The notes under the pieces were generated by a model that was given only the letters and a program-made list of their open reading frames with translations, was not told the origin of the DNA and searched no databases. A program made the translations under genes and the position numbers. A stretch of 33,327 nucleotides of DNA from Streptosporangium minutum (GTDB lineage Bacteria > Actinomycetota > Actinomycetes > Streptosporangiales > Streptosporangiaceae), in the NCBI RefSeq assembly GCF_002149035.1, contig NZ_NGFP01000084.1, positions 1-33,327 of the forward strand, read 5' to 3'. Positions within the stretch are counted from its first letter, which is position 1; the number at the start of each line of letters is the position of its first letter. Of this stretch, positions 8,788 to 31,011 are shown one piece after another.

Positions 8788-8953
8788 AATACCTCGCACT
8801 ACAGATATGTGCGGTTAACAGTGGCGAAACCCTAGCAACGCGGATCATCGACGACCAGAGATGCGGGTGATTCATATCAAGAAAGGATTTGTAGCTTTCG
8901 GGTTACTGCGAACCAACGCCGCCCGGGGCACGTCTTCCAGAGAGAGGGGGGAT

Positions 8954-11655: not shown

Positions 11656-11680
11656 CTGGGGCATCTGGGTGGGGTGGGGT

Positions 11681-13135
11681 ATGAGGGTGGGGACACAGGA
11701 GCCCGCTGTCGCGCTCCTCGGCAGTTCGGTACGCGCCGCTCCGAGCATCTGGACGCGGTCCTACGCAAGGATTCTGCTGGCCGGGGACCTCGCGTGCGCG
11801 GTGGTCGCCTGCGAGGCGGTCCTGGGGGTCCGCCTCTGGTTCGGCGCCTACATCCCGGGGACGGAGGCGCTCCTGGGGCTCGGACTCGCCCTGGCGTGGC
11901 CGTTCTCCCTGGCGGTGGGAGGCGCTTACCGCAAGCGTGCGCATGGTGAGGGGACGGAGGAGTTTCGGGCGGTTTTCGACGGCGGGGTTGGTTTGACCGC
12001 TGCTGTCGCAATAGGGGCTTATGCCACGCAAACAACTATTGCTCGTAGTTTCGTAATGGCGATGTTCCCTCTCGCCCTCATCCTCACGATCATTTTCCGC
12101 TACCGGATGCGCAAGCGGCTCCACCGGCGGCGCTCCTTCGGGGAGTACATGCGCCAGGTGGTCGCCGTCGGGCACCGGGAGTCGGTGCTCGATCTGGTGA
12201 TGCAGCTCCGGAGGCAACCGCACCACGGCATGACGGTGGTCGCCGCGTGCCTGCCGTCGGGCTCGGAGGGCCTGGACATCGACGGGGTCCCGGTCCTCGG
12301 AGGCTTCGGCGACGTCCCCGACGTGGTGGCCGAGGTCAACGCCGACACCGTCGCCATCCTGGCCTGTCCCGAACTGGACGGCGCGGCACTGCGCCGGCTC
12401 GCCTGGGGCCTGGAGGACGCCCGCACCGACCTGTTCGTGGCGCCCGCGCTCATGGACGTGGCGGGCCCGCGCATCAGCATCCGCCCGGTGGCCGGGATGC
12501 CGCTGCTCCACGTCGAGCATCCCGAGTTCGACGGCGCCAAGCACCTCGCCAAGAACCTGTTCGACCGGGTCGGCGCGGGCCTGGCCCTGCTGGTGCTGTC
12601 CGTCCCCATGCTGGTCATCACCCTGCTGATCCGCACGACCAGCACGGGGCCGGCCCTGTTCCGGCAGGTCAGAGTCGGCAGGGGCGGCAGGGAGTTCAAC
12701 GTCGTGAAGTTCCGCACCATGGTCAACGACGCGGAACGGCTCAAGATGGACCTCCAGCGGCAGAACGAGTTCGACGGCGTGCTCTTCAAGATGAGGAACG
12801 ATCCACGGATCACCCGCGTGGGCGCCTTCCTCCGCCGTTACTCCCTCGACGAGCTGCCGCAGCTGCTCAACGTGCTCCGCGGGGAGATGTCGCTGGTCGG
12901 GCCGCGGCCCCCGCTGCCCGAAGAGGTCAAGCAGTACGGCGAGGACGTGCGCCGCCGCCTGGTCGTCAAGCCCGGCATGACCGGCCTGTGGCAGGTCAGC
13001 GGCCGCTCCGACCTGACGTGGGAGGAGTCGGTCCGCCTGGACCTGCGCTACGTCGAGAACTGGTCGCTCTTCCTGGACCTGCAGATCCTCTGGAAAACCT
13101 GGAGCGCCGTCACCGGCGGAGAAGGGGCCTACTAG
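11681..13135 (+). CDS. Polyprenyl-phosphate glycosylphosphotransferase (initiating enzyme)
   Basis: This 484-residue membrane enzyme should transfer a sugar 1-phosphate from a UDP-sugar to undecaprenyl phosphate, starting each lipid-linked repeat unit. The N-terminal half has four hydrophobic helices and a nucleotide-binding-like CoA_binding_3 region. The last 200 residues are the Bac_transf catalytic domain: the hydrophobic stretch after KNLFDRVGAGLALLV, then VKFRTM, LDELPQLLNVLRGEMSLVGPRPP and KPGMTGLWQVSGRSDLTWEE. This is the WbaP/CpsE type. ATG 11681 follows a GGTGGGG stretch; an in-frame GTG at 11669 is possible. It opens the polysaccharide locus, and rmlA follows after 2 nt. Sugar specificity cannot be read from sequence. 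Confidence 0.93.
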   Translation: MRVGTQEPAVALLGSSVRAAPSIWTRSYARILLAGDLACAVVACEAVLGVRLWFGAYIPGTEALLGLGLALAWPFSLAVGGAYRKRAHGEGTEEFRAVFDGGVGLTAAVAIGAYATQTTIARSFVMAMFPLALILTIIFRYRMRKRLHRRRSFGEYMRQVVAVGHRESVLDLVMQLRRQPHHGMTVVAACLPSGSEGLDIDGVPVLGGFGDVPDVVAEVNADTVAILACPELDGAALRRLAWGLEDARTDLFVAPALMDVAGPRISIRPVAGMPLLHVEHPEFDGAKHLAKNLFDRVGAGLALLVLSVPMLVITLLIRTTSTGPALFRQVRVGRGGREFNVVKFRTMVNDAERLKMDLQRQNEFDGVLFKMRNDPRITRVGAFLRRYSLDELPQLLNVLRGEMSLVGPRPPLPEEVKQYGEDVRRRLVVKPGMTGLWQVSGRSDLTWEESVRLDLRYVENWSLFLDLQILWKTWSAVTGGEGAY

Positions 13136-13137
13136 CC

Positions 13138-14205
13138 GTGAAAGCACTCGTGCTCGCCGGGGGGTCGGGCACTCGGCTGAGGCCGATCACCCACACCTCC
13201 GCCAAGCAGCTCGTCCCGGTGGCCAACAAGCCCGTCCTGTTCTACGGGCTTGAGGCCATCGCCGCGGCCGGCATCCGGGAGATCGGGATCGTCGTGGGCG
13301 ACACGCAGGCCGAGATCGAGGCCGCCGTCGGCGACGGCTCCGCGCTCGGCCTGCAGGTGACCTACATCCGCCAGCACGCCCCGCTCGGGCTCGCCCACGC
13401 GGTGCTGATCGCCCGCGACTACCTGGGTGACGACGACTTCGTCATGTATCTCGGCGACAACTTCATCCTCGGTGGCATCAACGGCATCGTCGACCGGTTC
13501 GTCCACGACCGTCCGTCCGCCCAGATCATGCTCACCCGGGTCGGCGACCCTCGCCAGTTCGGCGTCGCGGAGCTCGACGCCGGGGGTCGTGTGGTCGGGC
13601 TGGAGGAGAAGCCGGCCGACCCCAAGAGCGACCTGGCTCTCGTCGGCGTCTACCTGTTCACCCCCGCGATCCACGAGGCGGTGGCCGAGCTCAAGCCGTC
13701 GTGGCGGGGCGAGCTGGAGATCACCGACGCGATCCAGTGGCTGATCCAGGAGGGGCACGAGGTCGAGTCCACCGTCATATCCGGCTACTGGAAGGACACC
13801 GGGAACGTCACCGACATGCTGGAGGTCAACAGGCTGGTCCTGGAGTCCCTGGACGGCCGCGTCGACGGCCGGGTGGACGGCGCCAGCGAGCTGATCGGCA
13901 GGGTGGTCGTCGAGCCGGGCGCCGTGGTCGAGCGCTCCCGCATCGTCGGCCCGGCGATCATCGGCGCCGGAGCCCGGGTCCTGGACAGCTACGTCGGCCC
14001 CTTCACCTCCATCGCCGCCGACTGCGTGGTCAGCGGCAGCGAGATCGAGTACTCGATCGTGCTGCCCCGCTCCTCGATCTCCGGGGTGTCCCGGATCGAG
14101 GCCTCGCTCATCGGCCACGACGTCGAGGTCACCCCGGCCCCCAACACCCCCAGAGCCCACCGTCTCGTGCTGGGCGATCACAGCAAGGTGCAGATCAGCT
14201 CTTGA
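13138..14205 (+). CDS. rmlA: Glucose-1-phosphate thymidylyltransferase, long form
   Basis: The enzyme makes dTDP-glucose from dTTP and glucose 1-phosphate, the first step to dTDP-6-deoxyhexoses. The 355 residues match the long family with a C-terminal left-handed beta-helix found in many actinomycete deoxysugar loci. The signature LAGGSGTRLRP and QLVPVANKPVLFYGLE are present, with YLGDNFILGG and EEKPADPKSDLALVGVY. The C-terminal hexapeptide repeats run from about 240 and end in HRLVLGDHSKVQ. GTG 13138 follows the upstream stop by 2 nt. The stop codon coincides with the end of an IS605-type remnant, so the last residues may be altered. A short in-frame duplication gives GRVDGRVDG near 240-250. 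Confidence 0.92.
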   Translation: MKALVLAGGSGTRLRPITHTSAKQLVPVANKPVLFYGLEAIAAAGIREIGIVVGDTQAEIEAAVGDGSALGLQVTYIRQHAPLGLAHAVLIARDYLGDDDFVMYLGDNFILGGINGIVDRFVHDRPSAQIMLTRVGDPRQFGVAELDAGGRVVGLEEKPADPKSDLALVGVYLFTPAIHEAVAELKPSWRGELEITDAIQWLIQEGHEVESTVISGYWKDTGNVTDMLEVNRLVLESLDGRVDGRVDGASELIGRVVVEPGAVVERSRIVGPAIIGAGARVLDSYVGPFTSIAADCVVSGSEIEYSIVLPRSSISGVSRIEASLIGHDVEVTPAPNTPRAHRLVLGDHSKVQISS

Positions 14206-14400
14206 CATCTTCTCCGCGGCTGAAGCCGAGAGATTCCGACCCTCACAGGTTGGAGTTCCTGTTTCACAGCCGATCGCGGGCACTCGGAACGAGTGCCGTG
14301 TCTTACATCAGCTCCGCAGGCGTTGCACCTCTCCACCAGCCCGGCGGCGAGGTCCTTGCGACCGTACAGGCCCGCTTGGTTATCGCAAGCCCGTGCACGA
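14202..14400 (-). mobile_element. IS200/IS605-type remnant: TnpB tail and right end
   Basis: Read leftward, the DNA encodes a tail typical of actinobacterial TnpB proteins: NACGADVRHG, then AVKQELQPVRVG and RLQP. It runs into a right-end structure. At the boundary the top strand reads TTGACATCTTCTCCGCGGCT, the degraded form of the common TTGACATCCTCCCC right-end sequence. The subterminal hairpin at 14211-14233 has CGGCT/AGCCG and TCTC/GAGA arms. On the element strand it ends in TCAA, the right-end cleavage tetranucleotide known from IS608. Most of TnpB, the left end and any TnpA are missing. The upper limit is approximate. A functional omega-RNA is possible but not shown. Confidence 0.65.
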
Positions 14401-14469
14401 CCATAACCGAAAGGGGGCAGGGGTGTACCGCCCATGGCTGAGGCAAGGGGTCTCCACCCCGGAATACCG

Positions 14470-15492
14470 ATGAAGATCTTGGTCATCGGTGGGGCCGGGT
14501 TCATCGGTTCCCACTACGTCCGCACGCTCAGCGCGGACGGCGTCGCCGTGACCGTTCTCGACAAGCTCACCTATGCCGGGAACCGGGCGAACCTGGAGGG
14601 CGCCGCCCACGAGTTCGTACACGGTGACATCTGCGACGCCGGGCTCCTGGCCGAGGTGGTGCCCGGCCACGAGGTCGTCGTCAACTTCGCGGCCGAGTCC
14701 CACGTGGATCGGTCCATCGACGGCGCCGGGGAGTTCGTGCGGACCAACGTGCTCGGCACGCAGACCCTGATGCAGGCGTGCCTCGACGCGGGCACCCGCC
14801 GGGTGGTCCAGGTCTCCACCGACGAGGTGTACGGGTCGATCGACACCGGCTCCTGGAAGGAGGACGCGCCGGTGCGGCCACGCTCGCCGTACTCCGCCGC
14901 CAAGGCGGGCGGCGACATGATCGCCCTCGCCTACGCGGTCACCCATGGCCTGCCGGTCTCCATCACGCGCTGCGGCAACAACTACGGGCCCCACCAGTAT
15001 CCGGAGAAGGTGATCCCGCTCTTCGTCACCAACCTCCTGCGGGGACGCAAGGTCCCGCTCTACGGCGACGGCGGCAACGTCAGGGACTGGATCCACGTCG
15101 CCGACCACTGCGCGGGCATCCGGCTCGTGGCCGAGCGGGGCGAGCCGGGCGAGGTCTACCACATCGCCGGTACGGCGGAGCTGACCAACACCGAGCTGAC
15201 CGCCCGGCTGCTGGCGGCCTGCGGCGCCGGCTGGGACATGGTCGAGCACGTCAAGGACCGCAAGGGGCACGACCGCCGCTATTCCCTGGACGACTCCCGG
15301 CTGCGTGCCCTGGGCTACCGGCCGAAGGTCCCGTTCGAGCAGGGCCTGGCGGAGACCGTCCGCTGGTACGCCGACAACCCGGACTGGTGGGAGGCCGCCG
15401 CGGACCACGGCGACGGCGCGACCGCGGGCGCCGGACGCCCGGCCGGGATCGCGGCCGTGGGCGCCGGGCGGACGGGCGGGGAGATCGCATGA
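14470..15492 (+). CDS. rmlB: dTDP-glucose 4,6-dehydratase
   Basis: This short-chain dehydrogenase-fold enzyme converts dTDP-glucose to dTDP-4-keto-6-deoxyglucose with bound NAD+. The 340 residues include the nucleotide motif GGAGFIGS (7-14), NFAAESHVDRSI, the catalytic STDEVYG (Thr-Asp-Glu), the YSAAK active-site Tyr/Lys, CGNNYGPHQYPEK and KDRKGHDRRYSLD. The last 25 residues are Gly/Ala-rich and extend beyond the usual end. ATG 14470 is supported by homology; only GGA about 6 nt upstream resembles a ribosome site. GGGGT/ACCCC with a 4-nt loop (14447-14460) lies just upstream and could affect initiation. It overlaps rmlD by ATGA. It is separated from rmlA by the IS remnant. Confidence 0.95.
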   Translation: MKILVIGGAGFIGSHYVRTLSADGVAVTVLDKLTYAGNRANLEGAAHEFVHGDICDAGLLAEVVPGHEVVVNFAAESHVDRSIDGAGEFVRTNVLGTQTLMQACLDAGTRRVVQVSTDEVYGSIDTGSWKEDAPVRPRSPYSAAKAGGDMIALAYAVTHGLPVSITRCGNNYGPHQYPEKVIPLFVTNLLRGRKVPLYGDGGNVRDWIHVADHCAGIRLVAERGEPGEVYHIAGTAELTNTELTARLLAACGAGWDMVEHVKDRKGHDRRYSLDDSRLRALGYRPKVPFEQGLAETVRWYADNPDWWEAAADHGDGATAGAGRPAGIAAVGAGRTGGEIA

Positions 15493-16346
15493 GCCGGTGG
15501 TTGATCACCGGGGCTTCCGGCATGCTCGCGACCGAGCTGCTGGGCCGCCTGCAGGCCGCCGGGGAGTCCGTCCTCGCCCTGCGCAGGGACGAGCTCGACC
15601 TCCGTGACGGGCCCGCCGTACGGCATCTGGTGTCGGCCTGCCGGCCGGACACCGTGGTGAACTGCGCGGCGTGGACGGCGGTGGACGACGCCGAGACCCA
15701 CGAGGCCGAGGCGCTCGCCGTCAACGGCCACGGGGTGCGGGCGCTGGCCGAGGCGTGCGAGCGCCTCGGCGCGCGGCTGATCCAGCCCTCTACGGACTAC
15801 GTCTTCGACGGGACCGCGCTGGACCCCTACCGGGAGGACGCGCGGACCTGCCCGGTCAACGCCTACGGGCGCACCAAGCTCGCCGGTGAGCGGGCCGTGC
15901 TGGAGGTGCTGCCCGAGACCGGCTACGTCGTGCGGACCGCCTGGCTGTACGGCGCGACCGGGAAGAACTTCGTCCGGACGATGGCGGACCTGGAGAGGAC
16001 CCGGCCGACCCTGGACGTCGTCGACGATCAGGTGGGCCCGCCCACCTGGGCCGGAGACCTGGCCGCCGGGATCATCGAGCTGGGCCGCACCGGACCGCCG
16101 CCCGGGGTCTACCACGCCACCGGCTCCGGCCAGACGAGCTGGTACGGCTTCGCGCGGGAGATCTTCAAGCTGGTCGGCGCGGACCCGGACCGGATCACCC
16201 CGGTCTCCACCAAGGAGTTCGCGCGGCCCGCGCCGCGGCCGGCCTACAGCGTGCTGGGACACGAGCGCTGGAGCCGGGCGGGACTGCCGCCGATGCGGGA
16301 CTGGCGAGAGGCGTTGCGGGGGTCCGATGTTCTCGTCAGAGGCTAG
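15489..16346 (+). CDS. rmlD: dTDP-4-dehydrorhamnose reductase
   Basis: This NAD(P)H-dependent reductase performs the last step to dTDP-L-rhamnose or a related sugar. The 285-residue SDR protein has the nucleotide motif TGASGMLA (8-15), NCAAWTAVDDAE, STDYVFDG, the active-site Tyr-x3-Lys in YGRTKLAGE, VVRTAWLYG and VDDQVGPPTWAGDLA. These are diagnostic RmlD blocks. ATG overlaps the rmlB stop (ATGA), so the two are coupled. The 3' end overlaps the convergent rmlC by 11 bp, and there is no room for an intergenic terminator. Confidence 0.94.
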   Translation: MSRWLITGASGMLATELLGRLQAAGESVLALRRDELDLRDGPAVRHLVSACRPDTVVNCAAWTAVDDAETHEAEALAVNGHGVRALAEACERLGARLIQPSTDYVFDGTALDPYREDARTCPVNAYGRTKLAGERAVLEVLPETGYVVRTAWLYGATGKNFVRTMADLERTRPTLDVVDDQVGPPTWAGDLAAGIIELGRTGPPPGVYHATGSGQTSWYGFAREIFKLVGADPDRITPVSTKEFARPAPRPAYSVLGHERWSRAGLPPMRDWREALRGSDVLVRG

Positions 16347-17046: not shown

Positions 17047-17117
17047 GGGTTCGCGCTCGATGGAATGATCTTGACGGAGAACGGTCGAGCCGCGTTCCGC
17101 GGCGAGGGAGCGTATTG

Positions 17118-18353
17118 ATGACAACCTGCCGGCTGTGCGGCTCCACGAGCCTCGCCAGCGTCGTCGACCTCGGTGCGACACCGCCCTGCGAGCGGTTCCT
17201 CACCGCTGAGCAGCTCGACGAGCCCGAGGTCACCTACCCGCTGCACCTGCGGGTGTGCACCGGTTGCTGGCTGGCGCAGATCCCGCCGCTGATCACGCCG
17301 GAGGACACCTTCACCGAGTACGCCTACTTCTCGTCCTACTCGACCTCCTGGGTGGAGCACGCGCGGGAGTACGTGAACGGGGCGGTCGAGCGGCTGGGGC
17401 TGGACGAGGGCTCGTTCGTGGTCGAGGTGGCCAGCAACGACGGATACCTGCTGCAGCACGTGGTCGAGCGGGGGATCCGGTGCCTGGGCGTCGAGCCGTC
17501 GAAGAACGTCGGCGAGGCGGCCAGGGAGCGGGGCGTGCCGACGGTCACGGCGTTCCTCGGCCCCGAGACCGGCGCCGCGGTGCGCGCGGAGCACGGGCCC
17601 GCCGACCTCGTGGCGGCCAACAACGTCTACGCCCACATCCCCGACGTCATCGGGTTCACCAAGGGCCTGCGCGCGCTCGTGGCCGACGACGGGTGGGTCT
17701 CCATCGAGGTGCAGCACCTGCTCACCCTGATGGAGCACAACCAGTACGACACGATCTACCACGAGCACTTCCAGTACTACACGGTCGCCTCCGCGCAACG
17801 CGCCCTGGCCTCCGGCGGGCTGTCCCTCGTGGACGTCGAGCTGCTGCCGACCCACGGAGGCTCGATCCGCCTGTGGGCGCGGCCGCAGGAGGCGGCCGGC
17901 GAGCCGGGCGAGCGGGTGGACCAGGTGCTCGCCGCGGAGAAGGCGGCGGGCCTGCACGAGCTGGCCGGATACACCGAGTTCGCCGCCCGGGTGGCCGGCG
18001 TCCGGCGGGACCTGCTGAGGTTCCTCGTCGAGGCCGCCGAGCAGGGCAGGACGGTGGTCGGCTACGGCGCGCCGGGCAAGGGCAACACGCTGCTCAACCA
18101 CTGCGGGGTCCGCGCGGACCTGCTGCAGTACACGGTGGACCGCAACCCCTACAAGCACGGCAGGTTCACCCCCGGCGCGCGGATCCCGATCCTGCCGCCC
18201 GAGCGGATCGCCGAGGACCGGCCCGACTACGTGCTGGTCCTGCCGTGGAACCTCCGCGAGGAGCTCACCGCCCAGCTGTCCTTCGTCCATGACTGGGGAG
18301 GCCGGCTGGTCTTCCCCATCCCCCGTCTGGAGATCGTCGAGGTGAACCCGTGA
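17118..18353 (+). CDS. Sugar C-methyltransferase-like protein (TylC3/NovU type)
   Basis: This 411-residue SAM-dependent methyltransferase has the three-part architecture of deoxysugar C-methyltransferases. An N-terminal zinc-binding part has Cys4, Cys7, Cys47 and Cys50 (CRLCGS, CTGC) around VVDLGATPPCERF. The Rossmann core has the SAM motif VEVASNDGYLLQ near 105. The C-terminal domain contains GYGAPGKGNTLLNHCG. Such enzymes act on NDP-4-keto-deoxysugars, often at C-3, but some relatives in sugar clusters have other roles. GAGGGAG lies 7 nt before ATG 17118. It opens a block of six tightly spaced genes and overlaps the next by GTGA. Confidence 0.88.
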   Translation: MTTCRLCGSTSLASVVDLGATPPCERFLTAEQLDEPEVTYPLHLRVCTGCWLAQIPPLITPEDTFTEYAYFSSYSTSWVEHAREYVNGAVERLGLDEGSFVVEVASNDGYLLQHVVERGIRCLGVEPSKNVGEAARERGVPTVTAFLGPETGAAVRAEHGPADLVAANNVYAHIPDVIGFTKGLRALVADDGWVSIEVQHLLTLMEHNQYDTIYHEHFQYYTVASAQRALASGGLSLVDVELLPTHGGSIRLWARPQEAAGEPGERVDQVLAAEKAAGLHELAGYTEFAARVAGVRRDLLRFLVEAAEQGRTVVGYGAPGKGNTLLNHCGVRADLLQYTVDRNPYKHGRFTPGARIPILPPERIAEDRPDYVLVLPWNLREELTAQLSFVHDWGGRLVFPIPRLEIVEVNP

Positions 18354-19144
18354 AGGTCGTGCTCTTCTGCGGCGGGTACGGAACGCGGATGCGCACCGGC
18401 ACCCCCGGTGACGCGCCCAAGCCCATGCAGCTCGTGGGTCCCCGCCCGCTCATCTGGCATGTGATGCGCTACTACGCGCACTTCGGGCACACGGAGTTCA
18501 TCCTCTGCCTCGGCTACGGAGCGCACCACATCAAGGACTTCTTCCTGAACTACCAGGAGACCACCTCCAACGACTTCGTCCTGCGCGGAGGCAGGATCGA
18601 GCTGCTGTCCGCCGACATCTCCGAGTGGTCGATCTCCTTCGTGCAGACGGGGATCGAGTCACCGATCGGCGAGCGGCTGCGCCGGGTCCGCGACCACCTC
18701 GACGGCGAGGAGATGTTCCTGGCCAACTACGCCGACGTGCTCACCGACGCGCCGCTGCCGGAGATCATCGACCGCTTCGCCGCGTCCGACGCGGGAGCCT
18801 CCATGATGGTCGTCCCGCCGTCGGACACCTTCCACTGCGTCGAGCTCGGGGAGCACGGGATGGTCGGCGGGATCACGCCGGTCAGCGAGATGCCGCTCTG
18901 GGTGAACGGCGGATACTTCGTGCTCCGCCAGGAGGTCTTCGACCACATCCCGCCGGGAGGCGACCTCGTCGCGGACGGCTGCGCCGAGCTGGCCAAGCGC
19001 GGCCGGATGCTCGCCTACCCCCACCGCGGCTACTGGCGGCCGACCGACACGGTCAAGGAGCGGGTCGCCCTCGACGAGGCGTACTCGCGAGGCGAGCGGC
19101 CGTGGGCGCTGTGGGAACGCGGACCGGCGGTGCGGACCGCATGA
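18350..19144 (+). CDS. Glucose-1-phosphate cytidylyltransferase-like nucleotidyltransferase
   Basis: The 264-residue protein belongs to the sugar nucleotidyltransferase superfamily and is closest in pattern to RfbF, which makes CDP-glucose. It has the pyrophosphorylase signature [10 protein letters not shown] with PKPM following, [34 protein letters not shown] and [12 protein letters not shown], where family members carry the metal-binding Asp. VNGGYFVL and [10 protein letters not shown] complete the fold. The nucleotide preference is inferred, not read from a diagnostic residue. No obvious CDP-glucose 4,6-dehydratase (RfbG) is present; the SDR protein two genes downstream is the only candidate dehydratase or epimerase. 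GTG start overlaps the methyltransferase stop, and its own stop overlaps the PIG-L gene (ATGA). Confidence 0.82.
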
Positions 19145-19827
19145 TCGGATTTCGGCCGGCCGGGGCGGACGGGGCGACCGGGAACGGCGGGAACGGCGGT
19201 CTGGGGAGCGTCGCGCTGCTCGCCGCCCACTGCGACGACCTCGCCATCGGCGCGGGCGGCAGCCTGCTGACCGTCTGCTCGGCACGTCCCGGCCTGCGGG
19301 TGGACGCGCTGGTGCTCTCCGGCGGCGGCACCGAGCGGGAGGACGAGGAGCACGCGGCGCTGGCCGCCTTCTGCCCCGGCGCCGACCTGCGGCTCACCGT
19401 GCTGAAGCTGCCCGACGGGCGGCTGCCCGCGCACTGGGAGGAGGCGAAGGCCGCCGTGGAGGAGCTGCGCGCACGGTCCGACCCCGATCTGCTGTTCGCG
19501 CCGCACCCCGGAGACGCCCACCAGGACCACCGGGGTCTGGCACGGCTGGTGCCCACCGCCTTCCGCGACCACCAGGTGCTCGGCTACGAGATCGTCAAGT
19601 GGGACGGCGACCTCGGGCGGCCGCAGGTCTACCAGCCGCTCGCCCCCGAGGTGGCCGAGGCGAAGGTGACCCTGCTCCAGCAGCACTACCCCTCACAGCG
19701 GCGACGTCCCTGGTACGACCGCGAGGCGTTCCTCGGGCTGGCCCGCATCCGCGGAATCGAGTGCCACGCGCGCTACGCGGAGGCGTTCCACGTCAACAAA
19801 CTGACCATCGATCTGGCTGGAGGATGA
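19141..19827 (+). CDS. PIG-L family deacetylase
   Basis: This 228-residue protein belongs to the LmbE/PIG-L zinc deacetylases, which remove N-acetyl groups from sugars or sugar conjugates (as MshB and BshB do in thiol biosynthesis). The zinc-binding motif usually written AHPDD appears as AHCDD (29-33), followed by HPGDAHQDH (122-130) with the third ligand. LLQQHYPSQ near the end is typical for members in sugar clusters. A Gly/Asn-rich stretch of about 20 residues precedes the domain. ATG overlaps the upstream stop. Context suggests it deacetylates an amino-sugar intermediate, but the target is not known. Confidence 0.85.
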
Positions 19828-19832
19828 ACCGG

Positions 19833-20876
19833 ATGCGCGTGCTGCTGACCGGGCACCAGGGTTACCTGGGAAGTGTGATGGCCCCGATGCTCGCCGAGGC
19901 GGGCCACGAGGTGATCGGCCTGGACTCCGGGCTCTTCGCCGACTGCGTCCTGGGCCCCGTGCCCGACGACCCCCCGGGCCACACGGTCGACCTGCGGGAC
20001 GTCACCGCCGCCGAGCTGGCGGGGATGGACGCCGTGGTGCACCTCGCCGCGCTGTCCAACGACCCGCTCGGCTCGCTGGCGCCCCAGCTCACCTACGACA
20101 TCAACCACCACGCCTCGGCGCGCCTGGCCCGGCTGGCCCGCGAGGCGGGCGTGCGCCGGTTCCTGTACGCCTCCACCTGCTCGGTCTACGGCGCCTCCGG
20201 CGGCGGCGACCTGGTCGACGAGGACGCGCCGCTGCGCCCGGTGACCCCCTACGCCGAGTCCAAGGTCCGGGTCGAGGACGACCTGGCCGAGCTGGCCGAC
20301 GACGACTTCACCCCGGTCTTCCTGCGCAACGCCACCGCGTTCGGGTTCTCGCCCCGGCCGCGCGCCGACATCGTGCTGAACAACCTCGTCGGGCACGCGC
20401 TGCTCACGGGCGAGGTCCGGGTGCTGTCCGACGGCACCCCGTGGCGGCCGCTGGTGCACGCCCAGGACATCGCGAGCGCCTTCGTCCTGGCCCTGACCGC
20501 TCCCCGTGAGGCCGTGCACGCCAGGGCGTTCAACGTGGGCACCGAGCAGAACAACGTGACCGTGGCGGAGATCGCCGCCGAGGTCGTCGAGGTGGTGCCC
20601 GGCTCCGAACTGGTGATCACCGGGGAGGCCGGGGCGGACCCGCGCTCCTACCGGGTGGACTTCTCCCGCATCCGCGCCGCGCTGCCCGGCTACCAGGCGC
20701 ACTGGACGGTCAAGGAGGGCGCGGTCGAGCTGGTCGAGGCCTACCGGCGGTTCGGCCTGACCGAGCGGGACTTCCAGCACCGTTTCACCAGGCTCGCGCG
20801 GCTGTCGGCCCGGCGCGCCGAGGGCAGCGTCGACGACGCGTTGCGACCGCACGAGGTGGCCGCAGGTGACGATTGA
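19833..20876 (+). CDS. NAD-dependent epimerase/dehydratase (SDR)
   Basis: This extended short-chain dehydrogenase of about 347 residues has the nucleotide motif TGHQGYLGS near the N-terminus, [11 protein letters not shown], the catalytic YASTCSVYG and Tyr-x3-Lys in [17 protein letters not shown], and the [16 protein letters not shown] block of sugar epimerases. It should oxidise or epimerise a nucleotide-sugar. ATG 19833 is chosen because GGAGG (19819-19823) is 9 nt upstream; ATG 19824 overlaps the PIG-L stop (ATGA) but abuts the GGAGG directly. The 3' end overlaps the DUF4910 gene by 11 bp. Reaction and substrate cannot be fixed from sequence. Confidence 0.87.
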
Positions 20877-22155
20877 GACCGTGGGGCGTGAGATGCACGC
20901 CCTGGTCGAGCGGCTCTACCCGCTGTGCCGGAGCATCACCGGCGACGGGGTGCGCCGCACTCTGGAGATCGTCGGGGAGTCCGTGCCCCTGCGGATCCAC
21001 GAGGTGCCGACGGGGACCGAGGTCCTCGACTGGACGGTGCCCAGGGAGTGGAACATCCGTGACGCCTACATCAAGGACGCGTCAGGCGCCCGGGTGGTCG
21101 ACTTCGCGGAGTCCAACCTCCACGTGGTCGGCTACAGCGTCCCGGTGTCGGCCACCATGTCCCTGGAGGAGCTCCGCGGCCACCTGCACACCCTGCCCGA
21201 CCAGCCCGACCTGATCCCCTACCGGACCAGCTACTACGCGGAGACCTGGGGGTTCTGCCTGCGGGAGAGCACCCTGGCCGGCCTCCCGGAGGGCGACTAC
21301 GAGGTCCGGATCGACTCGACCCTGGCCGACGGCCACCTGACCTACGGCGAGCATGTGGTGCCCGGCCGGGTACCCGACGAGGTGCTCGTCTCCTGCCACG
21401 TGTGCCACCCCTCGCTGGCCAACGACAACCTGGCGGGCATCGCCGTGGCGACCAGGCTCGCGCGGCGGCTGGCCGAGTCCGACCCGTGGTACACCTACCG
21501 CTTCCTGTTCATGCCCGGCACGATCGGCGCGATCACCTGGCTGGCGCGTAACCGGGAGCGCGTCGGAAGGGTCAAGCACGGGCTCGTGCTGGCCTGCGCG
21601 GGAGACAGCGGCGCGCTGACCTACAAGCGCAGCAGGCGCGGGGACGCGGAGATCGACCGGGTGGTGCGGCACGTCCTGCGCACCTCTGGCCGCGACCACG
21701 AGATCGTGGACTTCTCCCCGTACGGCTACGACGAGCGGCAGTTCTGCTCGCCCGGTTTCGACATGCCGGTCGGCTCCCTGACCCGCACGCCGTACGCCGG
21801 CTACCCGGAGTACCACACCTCGGCGGACAACCCGGACTTCGTCTCACCCGAGGCGATGACGGACACCCTGGAGACCTGCTGGGAGATCACCCGGGTGCTG
21901 GAGCGCAACCACCGCTATCTCAACCTCAGCCCGTACGGCGAGCCACAGCTCGGCAGGCGGGGCCTGTACGGCTCGCTGGGGGGACGCAGCGACACCAAGC
22001 AGGCGCAGATGGCGATGTTGTGGGTGCTGAACCTCTCCGACGGAGAGCACAGCCTGCTGGACATCGCGGAACGGTCCGACCTGCCCTTCGCCACCGTGGC
22101 GGATGCGGCACAAGCCCTGCGTGGTGCGGGACTCGTCAAGGAGAAGGGGAAATGA
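20866..22155 (+). CDS. DUF4910 aminopeptidase-like protein with C-terminal winged helix
   Basis: The 429-residue protein resembles DUF4910/DUF2172 proteins, a branch of the M28-like zinc peptidase fold often found in surface-sugar clusters. An N-terminal segment ([14 protein letters not shown], then [14 protein letters not shown]) is followed by the peptidase-like core with [16 protein letters not shown] (His and Asp ligands), [32 protein letters not shown] and [11 protein letters not shown]. The C-terminal 80 residues form a winged-helix-like domain. In the motif where a catalytic Glu would be expected (PETIG) the sequence is PGTIG, so peptidase activity is doubtful. GTG 20866 overlaps the upstream gene by 11 bp, and its stop overlaps the next gene (ATGA). 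A role on a peptide- or amino-acid-bearing sugar is a guess. Confidence 0.82.
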
Positions 22156-23207
22156 CGCAGGTTCAGACCGTCACGGGTTCCGGGGTGCTCAACCTCCGGG
22201 TCGGTGAGGTGGTGGAGGTCCTCAGCGAGGCCGAGATCATGGCCACCCTGGACGAGAGGGGCGAGCTGGACGAGCTGCCCTTCATGCCGGAGATGCTCGC
22301 CTTCTGCGGGCGGCGGCTCACCGTGCACAAGGTGGCCTACAAGCTCTGCGACACGATCAGCCGTACCGGCATGCGGCGGATGGAACGTGCCGTACACCTG
22401 ACCGGGGCGCGCTGCGACGGGCAGGCGCACGGCGGCTGCCAGACGGCCTGCCTGATGTACTGGAAGGAGGCCTGGCTCAAGCGGGTGGACCCCGGCGCCC
22501 CCGCGGCGCCCGCCCCGGCGGCCTCCGGGGAATCCGCGGCGACCGGGGGATCGGGCGGCCTCGCGGCGGGCCGCCGCCTCCTGCCGATCCTGGAGGTCGC
22601 CGCCAGGAAGGAGCCCGGTCCCGACGGGGAGGAGCGCTTCTCCTGCCAGGCCACCGAGCTGCTGCGGGCCGCGCCCACCTGCCTGCCGCTCAAGGACCTC
22701 CGGCAGTACGTCACGGACGTGCGCACCGGCAACGCGGGCACGTTCTTCGCGCTCCGCGCCCTTCTCGTCGGGCTTTTCAACCGCTTTCAGGACCGGAGCG
22801 GGCGGGTGCTGCCAAGCTGGCTGCAGATCAAGGGGGGCCTCAGGTGGGGCTTCGTCAGGGGCCGGCTCGTCGGCGCGACGCCGAGCGTCACCCTCGACCT
22901 CCAGCCGGGAGAGCTCGTCCGGATCAAGTCCAAGGAGGAGATCGTCGAAACCCTCAACCAGGACCTGCTCAACCGCGGGATGGGGTTCGAGGAGGAGATG
23001 TCGCGTTACTGCGGGCAGACGGCACGGGTGCTCTCGCGCGTCGATCGGTGCATCGACGAGAAGACCGGCCGGATGCTCCAGATGAAGACCCCCTGCATCG
23101 TCCTGGAGGGCATCGTCTGCGCGGGTGCGTACACCGTCAGCTGCCCCCGGGAGTTCATCCCGTTCTGGCGAGAGATCTGGCTGGAACGGGTCGAGGAACC
23201 CGCCTGA
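22152..23207 (+). CDS. Unrecognised protein with duplicated Cys-rich domain
   Basis: I cannot assign a known enzyme function to this 351-residue protein. It contains a clear internal duplication: residues 16-111 and 250-346 align. Both copies have GE-V, S-EI-TL, EM-CG, V-L-G-C, a second Cys eight residues on, and W-E-WL-RV at the end (KEAWLKRV, REIWLERV). Aligned cysteines are Cys52/287, Cys88/323 and Cys96/331; unpaired ones are Cys66, Cys100, Cys300 and Cys315. An Ala/Gly/Pro-rich linker (114-140) and a middle segment with Cys165 and Cys177 separate the copies. No signal peptide or transmembrane helix is evident. The cysteines suggest metal binding or a redox role. It is translationally coupled (ATGA) to the DUF4910 gene behind AAGGAGAAGGGG, which places it in the sugar-modification block. 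Confidence 0.75.
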   Translation: MTQVQTVTGSGVLNLRVGEVVEVLSEAEIMATLDERGELDELPFMPEMLAFCGRRLTVHKVAYKLCDTISRTGMRRMERAVHLTGARCDGQAHGGCQTACLMYWKEAWLKRVDPGAPAAPAPAASGESAATGGSGGLAAGRRLLPILEVAARKEPGPDGEERFSCQATELLRAAPTCLPLKDLRQYVTDVRTGNAGTFFALRALLVGLFNRFQDRSGRVLPSWLQIKGGLRWGFVRGRLVGATPSVTLDLQPGELVRIKSKEEIVETLNQDLLNRGMGFEEEMSRYCGQTARVLSRVDRCIDEKTGRMLQMKTPCIVLEGIVCAGAYTVSCPREFIPFWREIWLERVEEPA

Positions 23208-23268: not shown

Positions 23269-24786
23269 ATGGAAGACAGACAGGGCGCGGAGCCGGCGAC
23301 GGCCGACGCGGAGCCGGCCGCGGCCACCTCCCAGGTCGGGGAGATCGGCCGCCAGGCCGGTCGCGGGCTGCGCTGGAGCCTGCTGGGCAACCTGGTGATG
23401 AAGGTCGGCTCGTTCGCCATGAGCCTGGTCCTCGCCCGGCTGCTGGTACCGGAGGACTTCGGCGTCTTCGCCATCGCGCTGGCGGCGAGCCAGATGGTCA
23501 TCCACATCAACGACGCCGGCATCATCGCGGCGACCGTGCAGTGGCGGGGCAGACTTGAGGAGATGGCGCCCACGGCGACGGTCGTGGCCATCACCTCCAG
23601 CGGCGTCCTGTACGGGATCTTCTGGATGATCGCGCCGTACTTCGCGCAGCTGTCCGGCAGCGAGGAGGCCACCTGGGTGATCCGGGTGCTCGCGGCCACC
23701 AACGTCGTCTACGGCCTGACCGCCGTGCGCAGCGCGGCGCTGCTGCGCAGGTTCGAGCAGGACAAGCTCACCAAGGCCAACCTGGTGGGCTTCCTGGTCA
23801 ACGCCACGGTCTCCATCTCGCTCGCCGCCGGCGGCGCCGGCGCCTTCAGCTTCGCCTGGGGCCAGCTCGCGGGCGCCTCGGTCACCGGGGTGCTGGTGGT
23901 CGCCTTCGCGCGGCTGCGGATCCGGTTCGGCCTCGACCGCGCGGTCGCCAGGCGGCTGCTGGTCTTCGGGCTCCCGCTGTGCGTGAGCCTCGGCATCGAG
24001 GGCGTGCTGCTCAACGCCGACTCCGTCATCGTCGGCAACGCCCTCGGGCCCACCCTGCTCGGCCTCTACCTGCTCGCGTTCAACATCTCCAGCTGGGTGC
24101 CCGGCCTGATCGGCACGGCCGTGCGCTACGTCGCGCTGCCCAGCTTCTCGCGGCTGGCGGAGGAAGACCCGAAGTCGCTGTCGCTGGGCGTGCAGCGGGC
24201 GGTCCCGCTGCTGCTGTCCATCGTGCTGCCGATCGCGGTGGTGATGGGCACGCTCGCCCCCGCGCTGGTGGTCTTCCTGTACGGCGAACGCTGGGCCCCC
24301 TCCGCCGAGGTGCTGCGTTTCCTGGCGATCGTGATGACCGTGCGGATGCTGACCGCCCTGGCGTTCGACGTCCTGGCCTCTCTCGGCGCCACCAAGGCGA
24401 CCGTCTGGCTCAACCTGGGCTGGGCGGTGGCGCTGGTGCCCGCGCTGACGACCGGTGCGCGCGTGGACGGCATCCGGGGCGCGGCGATCGGGCACGCGGT
24501 GGTCGCCGTCCTGGTCGCGCTGCCGCTGGCGACGCTCGCCCTGCACAGAGCGGGGGTGGTCCTCGCCCCGATCGCCTCCGCCCTGGTGCGCCCGCTGCTC
24601 GGCGGCGTGCTCGCGGCGGCCGTCATGACGTCGCTGGCCCAGGCCGTCCACGGCGTCCCGCTGGTCCAACTGTGCGTGGCGGGCGGCACGGGACTGCTCG
24701 CCTTCATCCTCGTCGTCGTGCCGCAGGCCGTGCTCAGGCAGCTGGGCGGCAGGGTGACCGAGCTGATCCCCGCACGCTCCCGCTGA
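23269..24786 (+). CDS. wzx: Wzx-type oligosaccharide flippase
   Basis: The 505-residue integral membrane protein belongs to the polysaccharide transporter branch of the MATE/MOP superfamily and should flip undecaprenyl-linked repeat units across the membrane. After a hydrophilic N-terminal 30 residues come about 12-14 hydrophobic segments. Family-like blocks are GRQAGRGLRWSLLGNLVMKV, LARLLVPEDFGVFAIALA, a pair of basic loops (RSAALLRRFEQDKL), and PSFSRLAEEDPKSLSLGVQR. This is the WzxC-like subtype. AAAGGTAAGAG precedes ATG 23269. It sits with the GT2, polymerase-like and chain-length genes needed for a Wzy-type pathway. Confidence 0.88.
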   Translation: MEDRQGAEPATADAEPAAATSQVGEIGRQAGRGLRWSLLGNLVMKVGSFAMSLVLARLLVPEDFGVFAIALAASQMVIHINDAGIIAATVQWRGRLEEMAPTATVVAITSSGVLYGIFWMIAPYFAQLSGSEEATWVIRVLAATNVVYGLTAVRSAALLRRFEQDKLTKANLVGFLVNATVSISLAAGGAGAFSFAWGQLAGASVTGVLVVAFARLRIRFGLDRAVARRLLVFGLPLCVSLGIEGVLLNADSVIVGNALGPTLLGLYLLAFNISSWVPGLIGTAVRYVALPSFSRLAEEDPKSLSLGVQRAVPLLLSIVLPIAVVMGTLAPALVVFLYGERWAPSAEVLRFLAIVMTVRMLTALAFDVLASLGATKATVWLNLGWAVALVPALTTGARVDGIRGAAIGHAVVAVLVALPLATLALHRAGVVLAPIASALVRPLLGGVLAAAVMTSLAQAVHGVPLVQLCVAGGTGLLAFILVVVPQAVLRQLGGRVTELIPARSR

Positions 24787-24803: not shown

Positions 24804-25724
24804 ATGCTTGGAACCGACACGCTGGTGTCCGTCGGGCTGCCCGTGCGCAACGGCGCCGCGAGGCTGGAGGGCGTGGTCAGGTCGGTGCTGGCGCAGGACC
24901 ACGAGAACATCGAGCTGGTGATCTGCGACAACGCCTCCACCGACGACACCGAGGAGTTCTGCCGGGAGCTGGCGCGCTCCGACAGCCGGATCACCTACCA
25001 CCGGCAGCCGGAGAACGTGGGGCTGCTCAACAACTTCATCCACGCGGGGCGGATCGCCCGGGGGACGTTCTTCCGCTGGGTCGGCGACGACGACTGGCTG
25101 GCCCCCGAGTGCGTCTCCCGGTCCCTGCGCGCCTTCGCCGAGGACGAGCGGCTCATCCTGGTCACCACGCAGGTGTCCTACTCCGACCCCGACGGGACGG
25201 ACCGGACCGGCGTCTACGAGGGCACGGGACTGCTGTCCGACGACCCGGTCGAGCGGTTCGCCGAGATGCTGCGCATGCTCAACGAGAGCCACCTGCTGAT
25301 CGACCCCCTGTACGGCCTGATGCGCCGCGCCGCCGTCGTCGGCATCCCCCGGCGCAACATGCTCCGCGAGGACGAGGTGTTCGCGGCGAAGCTCGCGCTG
25401 GCCGGGCCGTGGGGTCACGTGCCCGAGGTGCTGGCCCGCCGCAACTGGAAGCACGAGCGCATCGGGGTGGTCGGACGCCGCCTCGGCGTGCCCGCCTGGC
25501 AGGCGCACTTCTCCTCCACCCTGCAGTACCGCGAGATCCTGCGCTGGCTGGGTGAGATCGACCTCACCCGGGAGCAGCGCGGCCGCGCGCGCGCCGCCGC
25601 GCACCGGATGTACGCCCGCCGCCAGTGGCGGACCGTGTCCCACCGCGGCCGCAAGCTCGCGCGGCTGGGCACCGGGCTGCTCCTGCCCGGCCGGTCCTCC
25701 GGACGCTCGGCGGCCGGAAGCTGA
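24804..25724 (+). CDS. Family 2 glycosyltransferase
   Basis: This 306-residue inverting GT-A glycosyltransferase should add one sugar to the lipid-linked intermediate on the inner membrane face. The N-terminal region shows VSVGLPVRNGAARLEGVVRS, VICDNASTDDTEE and the metal-binding DDD in RWVGDDDWLAPE (near 96). The C-terminal part is Arg-rich (RKLARLGTGLLLPGR), possibly an amphipathic membrane-contact helix. GGAGAGGG lies about 6 nt before ATG 24804. It is the only clear GT2 in the locus, so the repeat unit is either short or completed by enzymes encoded elsewhere. Donor and acceptor are unknown. Confidence 0.92.
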   Translation: MLGTDTLVSVGLPVRNGAARLEGVVRSVLAQDHENIELVICDNASTDDTEEFCRELARSDSRITYHRQPENVGLLNNFIHAGRIARGTFFRWVGDDDWLAPECVSRSLRAFAEDERLILVTTQVSYSDPDGTDRTGVYEGTGLLSDDPVERFAEMLRMLNESHLLIDPLYGLMRRAAVVGIPRRNMLREDEVFAAKLALAGPWGHVPEVLARRNWKHERIGVVGRRLGVPAWQAHFSSTLQYREILRWLGEIDLTREQRGRARAAAHRMYARRQWRTVSHRGRKLARLGTGLLLPGRSSGRSAAGS

Positions 25725-25782
25725 TCATGAATCACCGTGTGCGTACGAGCCACACCCGTCGCGAACAAGGAGAGCGTTCAGG

Positions 25783-26685
25783 ATGACCACCGTCTTTTCC
25801 AACAGCGTGGTGGACGACGACACCCGGCGCGGCCTGCTCTACGAGGGGAAGGTGTTCACCTACTCCGCGACGCCGGCCTCCAAGGAGCTCGTCGGTCTCG
25901 CCCAGCAGCTGATCGCCGAGGCGTTCGGCGACCACGACCCGCAGACCGCCCAGTTCGACATGCCGGTCGAGGAGTTCGCGGCCCTGCTCGCCGGCCTCAA
26001 GCCGAGGTTCATCCACCATCCCCGGTGCAAGGAGCTGCTGCCGGCCGTGCTGGAGGAGCTCGGCTGCTCCCTCGACCGGACCTACTTCGACGTCCCCCGG
26101 CTGCGCACCTCCACCTCCAACGACTACCTCACCTCGGGCATCTCCTACGCCTTCCACCCGCACCGCGACTGCTGGTACTCCGCCCCGTTCAACCAGCTCA
26201 ACTGGTGGATCCCGGTCTACCCGGTGGTGCCGGAGAACGTGATGGCCTTCCATCCCCAGTACTTCGACCGCCCCGTGCGCAACGGAAGCGCGCGCTACGA
26301 CTACGCCGAGTGGAACCGGACCAGCCGGCTCAGCGCGGCCCGGCACGTGCGCAGCGACACCAGGGAGCAGCCCAGGCCCGAGGAGCCGATCGAGCTCGAT
26401 CCGCAGGTGCGGGTGGTGCCCGAGCCGGGCGGGGTGATGCTGTTCTCCGGCGCGCAGCTGCATTCGACGGTCCCCAACACCTCGGGCAGGACCCGCTTCA
26501 GCATCGACTTCCGTACCGTGAACATCGACGACGTGCGCGCCCGCCGGGGCGCGGCGAACGTGGACGCGGCGTGCACGGGCACGACCCTGCGCGACTTCGT
26601 GCGCTGCTCCGACCTCGACCCGATGCCGGAGGGGCTGGCACTGGAGTACGAAGCCGAGGCCGAGGCGCTGGCCCGGGTGAGGTGA
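25783..26685 (+). CDS. Fe(II)/2-oxoglutarate oxygenase-like protein
   Basis: The 300-residue protein looks like a PhyH-type Fe(II)/2OG dioxygenase. The HxD iron ligands appear as His127-Arg-Asp129 in FHPHRDCWYS. Downstream come NWWIPVYPVVPENVMAFHP, a typical strand/loop of the jelly-roll, and GGVMLFSGAQLHSTVPN with the distal ligand His227. RTRFSIDFR supplies the likely 2-oxoglutarate-binding arginine. AAGGAGAG lies 8-10 nt before ATG 25783. In this setting it could hydroxylate or oxidise a nucleotide-sugar, lipid-linked sugar or substituent. It ends 23 bp short of the convergent acyltransferase. A different substrate unconnected with the polysaccharide cannot be excluded. Confidence 0.75.
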   Translation: MTTVFSNSVVDDDTRRGLLYEGKVFTYSATPASKELVGLAQQLIAEAFGDHDPQTAQFDMPVEEFAALLAGLKPRFIHHPRCKELLPAVLEELGCSLDRTYFDVPRLRTSTSNDYLTSGISYAFHPHRDCWYSAPFNQLNWWIPVYPVVPENVMAFHPQYFDRPVRNGSARYDYAEWNRTSRLSAARHVRSDTREQPRPEEPIELDPQVRVVPEPGGVMLFSGAQLHSTVPNTSGRTRFSIDFRTVNIDDVRARRGAANVDAACTGTTLRDFVRCSDLDPMPEGLALEYEAEAEALARVR

Positions 26686-28169: not shown

Positions 28170-29096
28170 ATGGACTTCTGGAAGGCCATATTCGGGCTCG
28201 TCAAGCGTAGACTCATCGGCCCTCCCCTGGCCGTGCTCGCGCTCGCGGCGGCGACCCTGGTCTTCTTCCTGATGCCCACCACCTACGTGTCGACCGCGTC
28301 CATGGTGCTCACCACCCCCGCGACCGGTGGAACGCTCCCATCCGACCCGACCAAGCCCCTCGGGCTGACCAACCCGTTGCTTCAGTTCAGCGACGGCCTC
28401 CGGGTCACGGCCGGCATCCTCATCCTCTCCATGAACGCCCCCGAGGTCGCGGCCGAGCTGGGCGTGCTGCCGAACGGCACCACCGAGATCACGATCAACG
28501 ACGGCCGCACCAACCCGAACCTGCTGGGCATCAGCACCAACGGCCCGTTCGTCTACGTGGAGGTCCAGAGCCGGTCCGCCGCCACCGCCCAGGACGTGGT
28601 GGTCAAGGCGAAGCAGCGCGTCCGCCGGGAGCTGACCAACCGCCAGCAGGCGCTCAAGGCCCCGCGCTCCACCTTCATATCGATCGTCGACGTGGTGCCC
28701 TCCTCCACCCCCGAGGCCAAGCTCTCGGGGAAGCTGACGGCCGCCGGCGGGACCCTGTTCCTCGTGTTCCTGGTCGGCATCGGCATCGCCTACGCCATGA
28801 CCCAGATGCGGCAGGGCGGGCGGTCCGCCGATCCCGCGCGTCCCTCCGAGGGGGGCGGCGGGCCGAAGGAGGACGCCCCCGGGGCCGCCGCGTTCTCCGA
28901 CACCGGGGCGGGCGCCGACCCGTTGACCGTCTACCCGCGGATGGACACGCGGGAGGCCGTGGAAGGACCGTTCCACGACGACCCCGAGCCGCTCGTCGTC
29001 GTGATCGAGAACGAGCCGTTCACGCACCGCGACGACGACGCCGGCGACACCATCGTGTTCATGCGCGCCAGCGGCCGGGACGACCACGAGAAGTGA
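28170..29096 (+). CDS. Wzz-like chain-length/co-polymerase protein, copy 1
   Basis: The 308-residue protein has the polysaccharide co-polymerase layout: a short cytoplasmic N-terminus, transmembrane helix 1 (about 16-35), an extracytoplasmic domain (36-187), transmembrane helix 2 (about 188-210) and a long acidic cytoplasmic tail (211-308). The extracytoplasmic part starts with TTYVSTASMVLTTP and has GLTNPLLQFSDGL and AAELGV, shared with the paralogue at 30246. No Walker A motif follows, so it has no fused tyrosine kinase. Its likely role is to set polymer length with the Wzy-like protein. AGGGG lies 9 nt before ATG 28170. The tail (NEPFTHRDDDAGD) is not shared with copy 2. Confidence 0.75.
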   Translation: MDFWKAIFGLVKRRLIGPPLAVLALAAATLVFFLMPTTYVSTASMVLTTPATGGTLPSDPTKPLGLTNPLLQFSDGLRVTAGILILSMNAPEVAAELGVLPNGTTEITINDGRTNPNLLGISTNGPFVYVEVQSRSAATAQDVVVKAKQRVRRELTNRQQALKAPRSTFISIVDVVPSSTPEAKLSGKLTAAGGTLFLVFLVGIGIAYAMTQMRQGGRSADPARPSEGGGGPKEDAPGAAAFSDTGAGADPLTVYPRMDTREAVEGPFHDDPEPLVVVIENEPFTHRDDDAGDTIVFMRASGRDDHEK

Positions 29097-30162: not shown

Positions 30163-30245
30163 AGTAACGCCCCGCCCAGGTCCGGGCGATGACCATTAGC
30201 GGGCTTCTGTGCGGTCGCCCGCCGTTCGGTTCGGGGAGGAAACGC

Positions 30246-31007: not shown

Positions 31008-31011
31008 CCCC

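Follow-up and report, generated by a model that had tools for sequence, protein, structure and literature searches.

An internally duplicated eight-cysteine protein family linked to flippase and glycosyltransferase genes of Wzx/Wzy-type polysaccharide loci

Introduction

To our knowledge, the coupling of Wzx flippases to the enzymes that make flippase substrates is poorly understood, and we know of no cytoplasmic Cys-rich component in the standard Wzx/Wzy set. A gene for a Cys-rich protein, predicted to be cytoplasmic, lies within a polysaccharide locus of Streptosporangium minutum, and what its product does there is the question addressed here. The DNA analysed, called the window throughout, is the whole 33,327-nucleotide stretch of contig NZ_NGFP01000084.1; the gene (22152..23207, + strand) encodes an unnamed protein (P0001), here termed the eight-Cys protein. 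This protein is internally duplicated, carries eight invariant cysteines and is encoded beside conserved neighbours. Our preferred reading, to which we assign a probability of roughly 0.4, is that it is an accessory protein, cytoplasmic and with two metals, that takes part in the assembly and flipping of the lipid-linked repeat unit.

Results

Two diverged repeats and eight invariant cysteines

The frame 22152-23207 has no internal stops. The gene and the features of its product are the following.

22152..23207, + strand: gene of the unnamed duplicated eight-Cys protein (P0001), 351 residues, identified by its open frame, its relatives and an ATGA overlap
22191..22487, + strand: N repeat, residues 14-112, with C66, C88, C96 and C100, from the repeat alignment and the Cys columns
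22347..22451, + strand: predicted Cys4 site 1, made up of C66 (22347-22349), C88 (22413-22415), C96 (22437-22439) and C100 (22449-22451)
22644..22646, + strand: C165 in the linker motif CQATE, present in 275/275 aligned rows, predicted fourth ligand of site 2
22896..23192, + strand: C repeat, residues 249-347, with C287 (23010-23012), C323 (23118-23120) and C331 (23142-23144)

A sequence-only reading of the window had proposed that residues 16-111 and 250-346 are homologous, and blastp, shuffle and profile-profile tests agree that they are. The two protein ends share 28% identity over 109 ungapped residues (E value 2e-13 with blastp, 6e-14 with phmmer). The Smith-Waterman score between the two segments is 97, a value reached by none of 2000 shuffles (mean 25.4, standard deviation 4.5, maximum 51). 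Profiles of the N repeat and the C repeat, for which 94 of the 97 rows in one alignment (A4) were used, matched each other over 99 columns with a probability of 99.7 and an E value of 6.2e-26. The three aligned cysteines of the proposal are present (C52/C287, C88/C323 and C96/C331), and both repeats have the common W-(K/R)-E-x-W-L ending.

Exactly eight cysteines (C66, C88, C96, C100, C165, C287, C323 and C331) are invariant in all 275 full-length rows of an alignment of the best-scoring members, from which short relatives were excluded; 192 rows are proteins from searches and translations and 83 come from loci, the sources overlapping. The next most conserved Cys column is C52 (271/275). All eight cysteines were also found in six sequences outside the alignment (L104, L110, L111, L118, L119 and L120), and a further match, L108 in genome G349, carries an in-frame stop.

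In the N repeat C66 is followed by the spacing C88-x7-C96-x3-C100. From the Cys columns we infer two Cys4 metal sites, with C66/C88/C96/C100 grouped as one and linker C165 joined to the Cys trio of the C repeat as the other. The earlier suggestion that the protein may bind a metal is thus favoured by the Cys pattern. Metal sites would be likelier than disulphides because the N-terminus, read by eye, holds no signal-peptide-like stretch and no convincing transmembrane helix was seen, a reducing cytoplasm being assumed.

A stand-alone single-repeat gene is claimed for L109:7043-7627 only. It has an Acetyltransf_6 gene on one side and a gene for a B12-binding radical SAM protein on the other, and its product (P0316), read by eye, has four cysteines in its one repeat, at the C52/C287 position and in C-x7-C-x3-C, which fits one site per repeat. 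Short relatives number 1547; among the best 120 viewed many look like pieces of long relatives, and a few, P0207 and P0213 among them, may be whole single-repeat proteins.

The RCDGxAH motif at C88-H93 bears a superficial likeness to CDGSH proteins. The CDGSH [2Fe-2S] ligand set is C-x-C ... C-D-G-(S/A/T)-H with an invariant His. Membership in that family was rejected: residue 93 is H in 220 rows, Y in 45 and F in 10, so that Y or F stands in 55 of 275; there is no invariant CxC; and the Pfam families matched by 97 members, 25 of 32 being shown, include no CDGSH model.

A large family absent from the curated libraries searched

The protein had been described as an orphan that could not be placed in a known enzyme family. 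The first part does not hold, as thousands of relatives exist. A first protein search found 4371 relatives among 8000 scored candidates, and with the Bosea and Mesorhizobium proteins added to the profile at least 7987 of 8000 scored candidates were related, which rules out true orphan status. The source names of the best 120 relatives per search read hypothetical, uncharacterized or unnamed protein, with one exception: P0199, a 144-residue piece, is labelled "predicted DNA-binding antitoxin AbrB/MazE fold protein", which its own Pfam scan did not support.

The second part stands, since Pfam, NCBIfam and solved structures give no match to P0001; in the two libraries no family was above its cut-off and none had an E value below 0.001. 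The PF16254 (DUF4910) domain is not in the eight-Cys protein and was found in its neighbour. In 97 relatives, other Pfam families, among the 25 of 32 shown, occurred in at most five members each with E values of 0.0026 or worse, and the NCBIfam scan gave nothing below 0.013. PHROGs and PADLOC scans of three members gave no match at E below 0.001. Profile matches in the PDB to Mdm4, an odorant-binding protein, amphiphysin 2 and a designed protein (E values 0.11 to 1.8) were treated as chance, as were four single-sequence structure matches with E values of 1 or more. A phage or defence protein was also rejected: the three members had no PADLOC match at E of 1 or less and no PHROGs match below 0.03, a search of phage records with P0238 gave no match, and none of 23 pattern matches in viral contigs was a relative.

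A weak signal came from SH3_15 (PF18346, the Mind bomb SH3 repeat), matched by 43 of the 97 relatives at E of 1 or less (best 2.8e-5); depending on the member, the match falls where the N repeat or where the C repeat begins. The opening G-(D/E)-x-V-x-V of either repeat fits SH3_15; the two differ in length, 67 positions in the model against about 100 in the eight-Cys repeat, which adds the Cys cluster. None of the curated libraries searched holds the family; the kind of locus in which it occurs is known. A literature search, which covered titles and abstract openings and left subscription papers mostly outside, returned no paper describing the family.

Members occur in Actinomycetota, in Alphaproteobacteria (plasmids of Mesorhizobium and Bosea) and in metagenome-assembled genome records labelled Rokubacteria and Binatia. 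The closest named relative is S. canum, whose protein at locus L007 is 97% identical to that of the window. The distribution is patchy. A clear eight-Cys gene was found in 3/296 genomes of a phylum sample, the window genome counted and partial matches in G120 and G139 (E value 3e-4) excluded as marginal, and in 39/150 genomes of a taxonomic-family sample. Two other classes gave 3/149 and 2/66 genomes and one order gave 4/298, each of these samples being centred on a genome already known to carry the gene. An occurrence in Bacteroidetes (L062) was set aside as a probably misplaced contig: its protein is 65% identical to that of the window, it lies on a 3.2-kb contig and it was seen in 1/198 genomes of that phylum, L062's own.

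Conserved linkage to flippase, GT2 and DUF4910 genes

The genes that flank the eight-Cys gene in the window are the following.

20866..22155, + strand: DUF4910 protein (PF16254, DUF2172, HTH_47; Pfam E value 7e-118), the coupled upstream gene
23269..24786, + strand: Wzx-type flippase (PF13440, Polysacc_synt_3; Pfam E value 1e-54), next downstream
24804..25724, + strand: GT2 glycosyltransferase (PF00535; Pfam E value 8e-26)

The ATG at 22152 and the stop of the DUF4910 gene (22153-22155) share the ATGA at 22152-22155, and this 4-bp overlap makes the proposed translational coupling direct. The gene does not close a block of sugar genes, as had been thought, since the flippase and GT2 genes follow on the same strand.

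We compared 95 loci, made up of 80 kept of 200 relatives, four plasmid-collection records and eleven further genome stretches, and took as next gene the first one on the same strand, at most 400 bp away. By genus, the named loci belong mostly to the Streptosporangiales and are not independent. The next gene was a flippase in 66 loci, a GT2 gene in 14, an Acetyltransf_6 gene in one and an RmlB-like gene in one; 12 loci had no marker there and one met the contig end. Flippase or GT2 is thus directly next in 80 of 95 loci, and GT2 directly follows the flippase in 55 of the 66 flippase-next loci. Over 93 loci the tally was 72 for methyltransferase, 72 for epimerase, 71 for nucleotidylyltransferase and 62 for Wzy-like genes. 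By its conserved linkage to flippase, glycosyltransferase and polymerase, the eight-Cys gene is part of Wzx/Wzy polysaccharide loci. The window resembles Wzx/Wzy-dependent loci in that an initiating transferase, GT2, Wzx-type flippase and Wzy-like ligase surround the gene, and its steadiest partners are flippase, GT2 and DUF4910.

No DUF4910 gene was found in the examined DNA of 27 of the 95 loci, some of them on short contigs; the next gene there was a flippase in five and GT2 in eight. The sugar-operon setting claimed on the sequence-only reading is borne out by the 80 loci with flippase or GT2 next, which also contradict the possibility that homologues are never near sugar genes; what did not stand is its specificity for sugar modification or for DUF4910. 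A role in sugar modification only is weakened by the same 27 loci.

Loci of Rhodococcus, Mycolicibacterium and Nocardioides (L032, L043, L064 and L083), with flippase next and no DUF4910, and of Nocardia, Aldersonia and other Rhodococcus and Nocardioides (L035, L038, L057, L070, L071, L074 and L079), with GT2 next, are independent repeats of the linkage. Two more independent repeats come from Mesorhizobium, where the flippase overlaps the eight-Cys gene by 4 bp, and from Bosea (L088), where it is divergent from the eight-Cys gene, with no other annotated sugar genes in 21.7 kb. The window flippase is 24-26% identical to the Bosea and Mesorhizobium flippases, and the window eight-Cys protein is 43% identical to that of Bosea over 320 residues.

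The 12 loci with no marker next include Bosea L088 and four others (L107, L109, L111 and L120) that are surrounded by sugar genes but have no flippase or GT2 marker adjoining. They also include L118, which by reading holds an epimerase fragment and transposase-like genes, and L108, where no polysaccharide marker gene was found in the examined DNA, its other genes being left unannotated; the remaining five are taken up in the Discussion. A second recurrent setting, seen in L110 and L111, consists of polysaccharide deacetylase, GT2, Acetyltransf_6 (PF13480) and eight-Cys genes. In five loci (L073, L076, L078, L080 and L081) methyltransferase, DUF4910, eight-Cys and GT2 genes precede the nucleotidylyltransferase, epimerase and flippase genes, and this broken order suggests that the DUF4910, eight-Cys and GT2 genes may move together as one block.

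DUF4910 has been tied to operons for modified carbohydrates of the cell surface, which also hold genes for an epimerase, a nucleotidyltransferase, a methylase and export (PMC4000134). Main-text passages of that paper are silent on a duplicated Cys-rich protein, which may be listed in its supplementary tables of gene neighbourhoods. The likeness to the DUF4910/CA_C2195 (PDB 3k9t) operons lies in the DUF4910 gene directly upstream here, while DUF4910 and the eight-Cys protein are distinct protein families.

Linkage was also followed across the 150 genomes of the taxonomic family, with at most 10 to 13 first-look candidates scored per genome. DUF4910 was found in 37 genomes, all inside the 39 with the eight-Cys gene. 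Flippases with at least 53% identity were found in 36, again all inside those 39.

Discussion

A possible accessory role in repeat-unit assembly and flipping

We infer from the sequences how metal, fold, location, partner contacts and function of the eight-Cys protein may fit together. It would be a cytoplasmic metalloprotein formed of two diverged copies of one roughly 100-residue domain, each copy probably an SH3-like barrel, with a conserved linker between them. Two metal centres are predicted, probably of zinc, an iron-sulfur cluster being possible. Site 1 (C66/C88/C96/C100) would lie wholly in the N repeat, and site 2 would combine C287/C323/C331 of the C repeat with linker C165 and so would clamp both halves together. 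In Wzx/Wzy-type surface-polysaccharide synthesis the protein would probably serve on the inner side of the membrane, in an accessory or adaptor role, and assist both the flippase and the last glycosyltransferase(s) with the lipid-linked repeat unit. Speaking for this reading are the duplication, the eight invariant cysteines, the N-terminus with no signal-peptide-like stretch, the SH3_15 matches, the flippase or GT2 as next gene and the return of flippase adjacency in Mesorhizobium and Bosea. A bolder version, which we put forward tentatively and consider improbable as it stands, would make the family (about 8000 clusters at 90% identity or more) a core part so far missing from Wzx/Wzy polysaccharide assembly. 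In that version a duplicated SH3-like protein with two metals would act as adaptor between the last glycosyltransferase and the flippase, and site 2 would staple the linker to the C repeat.

Several observations weigh against the accessory role. The SH3_15 score of P0001 is 12.3 bits, and six members including it score 12.3 to 16.6 bits, all under the 24-bit cut-off, although the best of the 97 relatives (E value 2.8e-5) may score close to it; no solved structure related by sequence was found. A 19-residue stretch with mean hydropathy of at least 1.6 is present in only 4/275 relatives, and a transmembrane linker helix is accordingly unsupported by hydropathy. DUF4910 is as frequent an upstream neighbour (66/95 loci) as the flippase is a downstream one. 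A distant flippase is present without the eight-Cys gene in 22/150 family genomes, and flippases in general do not need it. Over 60 loci the distance-matrix correlation with the eight-Cys gene is highest for DUF4910 (0.77), which also counts against this role; in its favour, the Wzz-like (0.76), flippase (0.70) and GT2 (0.70) genes stand above the methyltransferase, nucleotidylyltransferase and epimerase genes (0.42-0.49). All these values share one common locus history and carry no correction for paralogous copies of the three sugar-nucleotide genes.

Five loci (Crossiella L066 and L068, and L104-L106) have no polysaccharide marker match in the examined DNA, and reading of open reading frames (ORFs) within 3.8 kb of them gave no clear marker except a methyltransferase beside L106. 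In Crossiella the eight-Cys gene stands between a YdcZ exporter gene (from the scan for L066) and a FolD-like gene (by reading). L104-L106, two copies in G162 and one in G430, lie near DUF305 (from the scan for L105) and near genes that, by eye, look metal-linked.

Alternative explanations

The strongest rival, which we nevertheless think unlikely, is a Zn- or Fe-S-dependent metalloenzyme whose task would be to modify either a nucleotide sugar or the lipid-linked oligosaccharide; its active site would be centred on the conserved linker (CQATE, QY, D, GN) and on invariant Arg/Lys/Trp residues. Besides the cysteines, K60, R87, Q166, T168, Q185, N194, R257, E303, R333 and R340 are conserved, many of the polar residues being near-invariant, and such dense polar conservation, high across phyla as the identity to the Bosea protein indicates, would be no less in keeping with an enzyme than with an adaptor. 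Sugar-nucleotide genes are nearby in most loci, as tallied above, and an enzyme would account more readily for occurrence away from polysaccharide markers than a partner of the flippase would. However, neither P0001 nor, in the matches listed, any of 97 relatives matched an enzyme family of Pfam or NCBIfam with an E value below 0.001, and the PHROGs and PADLOC scans of three members gave no such match either. The eight-Cys gene is also kept where no DUF4910 gene is in the examined DNA, so that no single sugar pathway explains it.

A dedicated partnership with DUF4910, in which both proteins would work as one complex on some modified sugar, the link to the flippase being no more than a by-product of locus layout, is less probable still. 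The 4-bp overlap, the upstream position, the confinement of DUF4910 to genomes with the eight-Cys gene and the top distance correlation all speak for it. Against it, the gene stands in 27 of 95 loci with no DUF4910 in the examined DNA, a few of them on short contigs; genomes G480 and G527 carry it with no DUF4910 match; and in Mesorhizobium DUF4910 lies about 3 kb off on the other strand, while the flippase overlaps the eight-Cys gene.

A metal- or redox-responsive switch of polysaccharide output, neither structural nor catalytic, would suit the two predicted Cys4 centres and, at L104-L106, neighbours such as DUF305 and a P-type-ATPase-like ORF read by eye, but it is the least probable of the three, as P0001 has no DNA-binding or sensor domain over cut-off in Pfam or NCBIfam, weak AbrB/MazE-type matches occur in just 3/97 members (best E values 0.067 and 0.19) and the gene is conserved within biosynthetic operons.

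A large uncurated family with a strict eight-Cys pattern, found beside very different flippases in two phyla, offers a concrete gene for study, and a name for it would cover thousands of proteins now called hypothetical.

Other genes of the window

The polysaccharide locus of the window runs from an initiating sugar transferase through RmlA, RmlB, RmlD, sugar C-methyltransferase, nucleotidylyltransferase, epimerase and DUF4910 genes to the eight-Cys gene, which is followed by Wzx-type flippase, GT2, oxygenase-like, acyltransferase, Wzz-like and Wzy-like ligase genes. The names RmlB and Wzz-like come from sequence reading.

11669..13135, + strand: initiating sugar transferase (PF02397)
13150..16346, + strand: RmlA, RmlB and RmlD block (dTDP-rhamnose), with RmlA at 13150-14205 (TIGR01208, E value 2e-133, over cut-off), RmlB at 14434-15492 and RmlD inside the ORF 14778-16346 (TIGR01214, E value 5e-95, over cut-off)
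17115..18353, + strand: sugar C-methyltransferase (PF08421, PF13489, PF08484)
18350..19144, + strand: sugar-1-phosphate nucleotidylyltransferase (PF00483, E value 3e-6; TIGR02623, E value 6e-54, under its cut-off)
19599..20876, + strand: NAD-dependent epimerase/dehydratase (Pfam E value 8e-47 from residue 81 on), whose true start is probably inside this ORF
25552-26685, + strand: oxygenase-like gene (weak 2OG-Fe(II) oxygenase match, PF13759, E value 1.4e-4, under cut-off)
28170-29096 and 30189-31007, + strand: two Wzz-like proteins, with no Pfam or NCBIfam match
30994-32400, + strand: Wzy/O-antigen-ligase-like protein (PF04932, E value 1e-12)

Relatives of the oxygenase-like gene were found by tblastn in 25/85 loci, and relatives of the first Wzz-like protein in 62/93. 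A DUF6492 protein is encoded on the opposite strand within the locus (29160-30035, - strand). A histidine-kinase-like protein (6736-8799, - strand), whose NCBIfam matches are far under their cut-offs, is encoded about 3 kb ahead of the initiating transferase.

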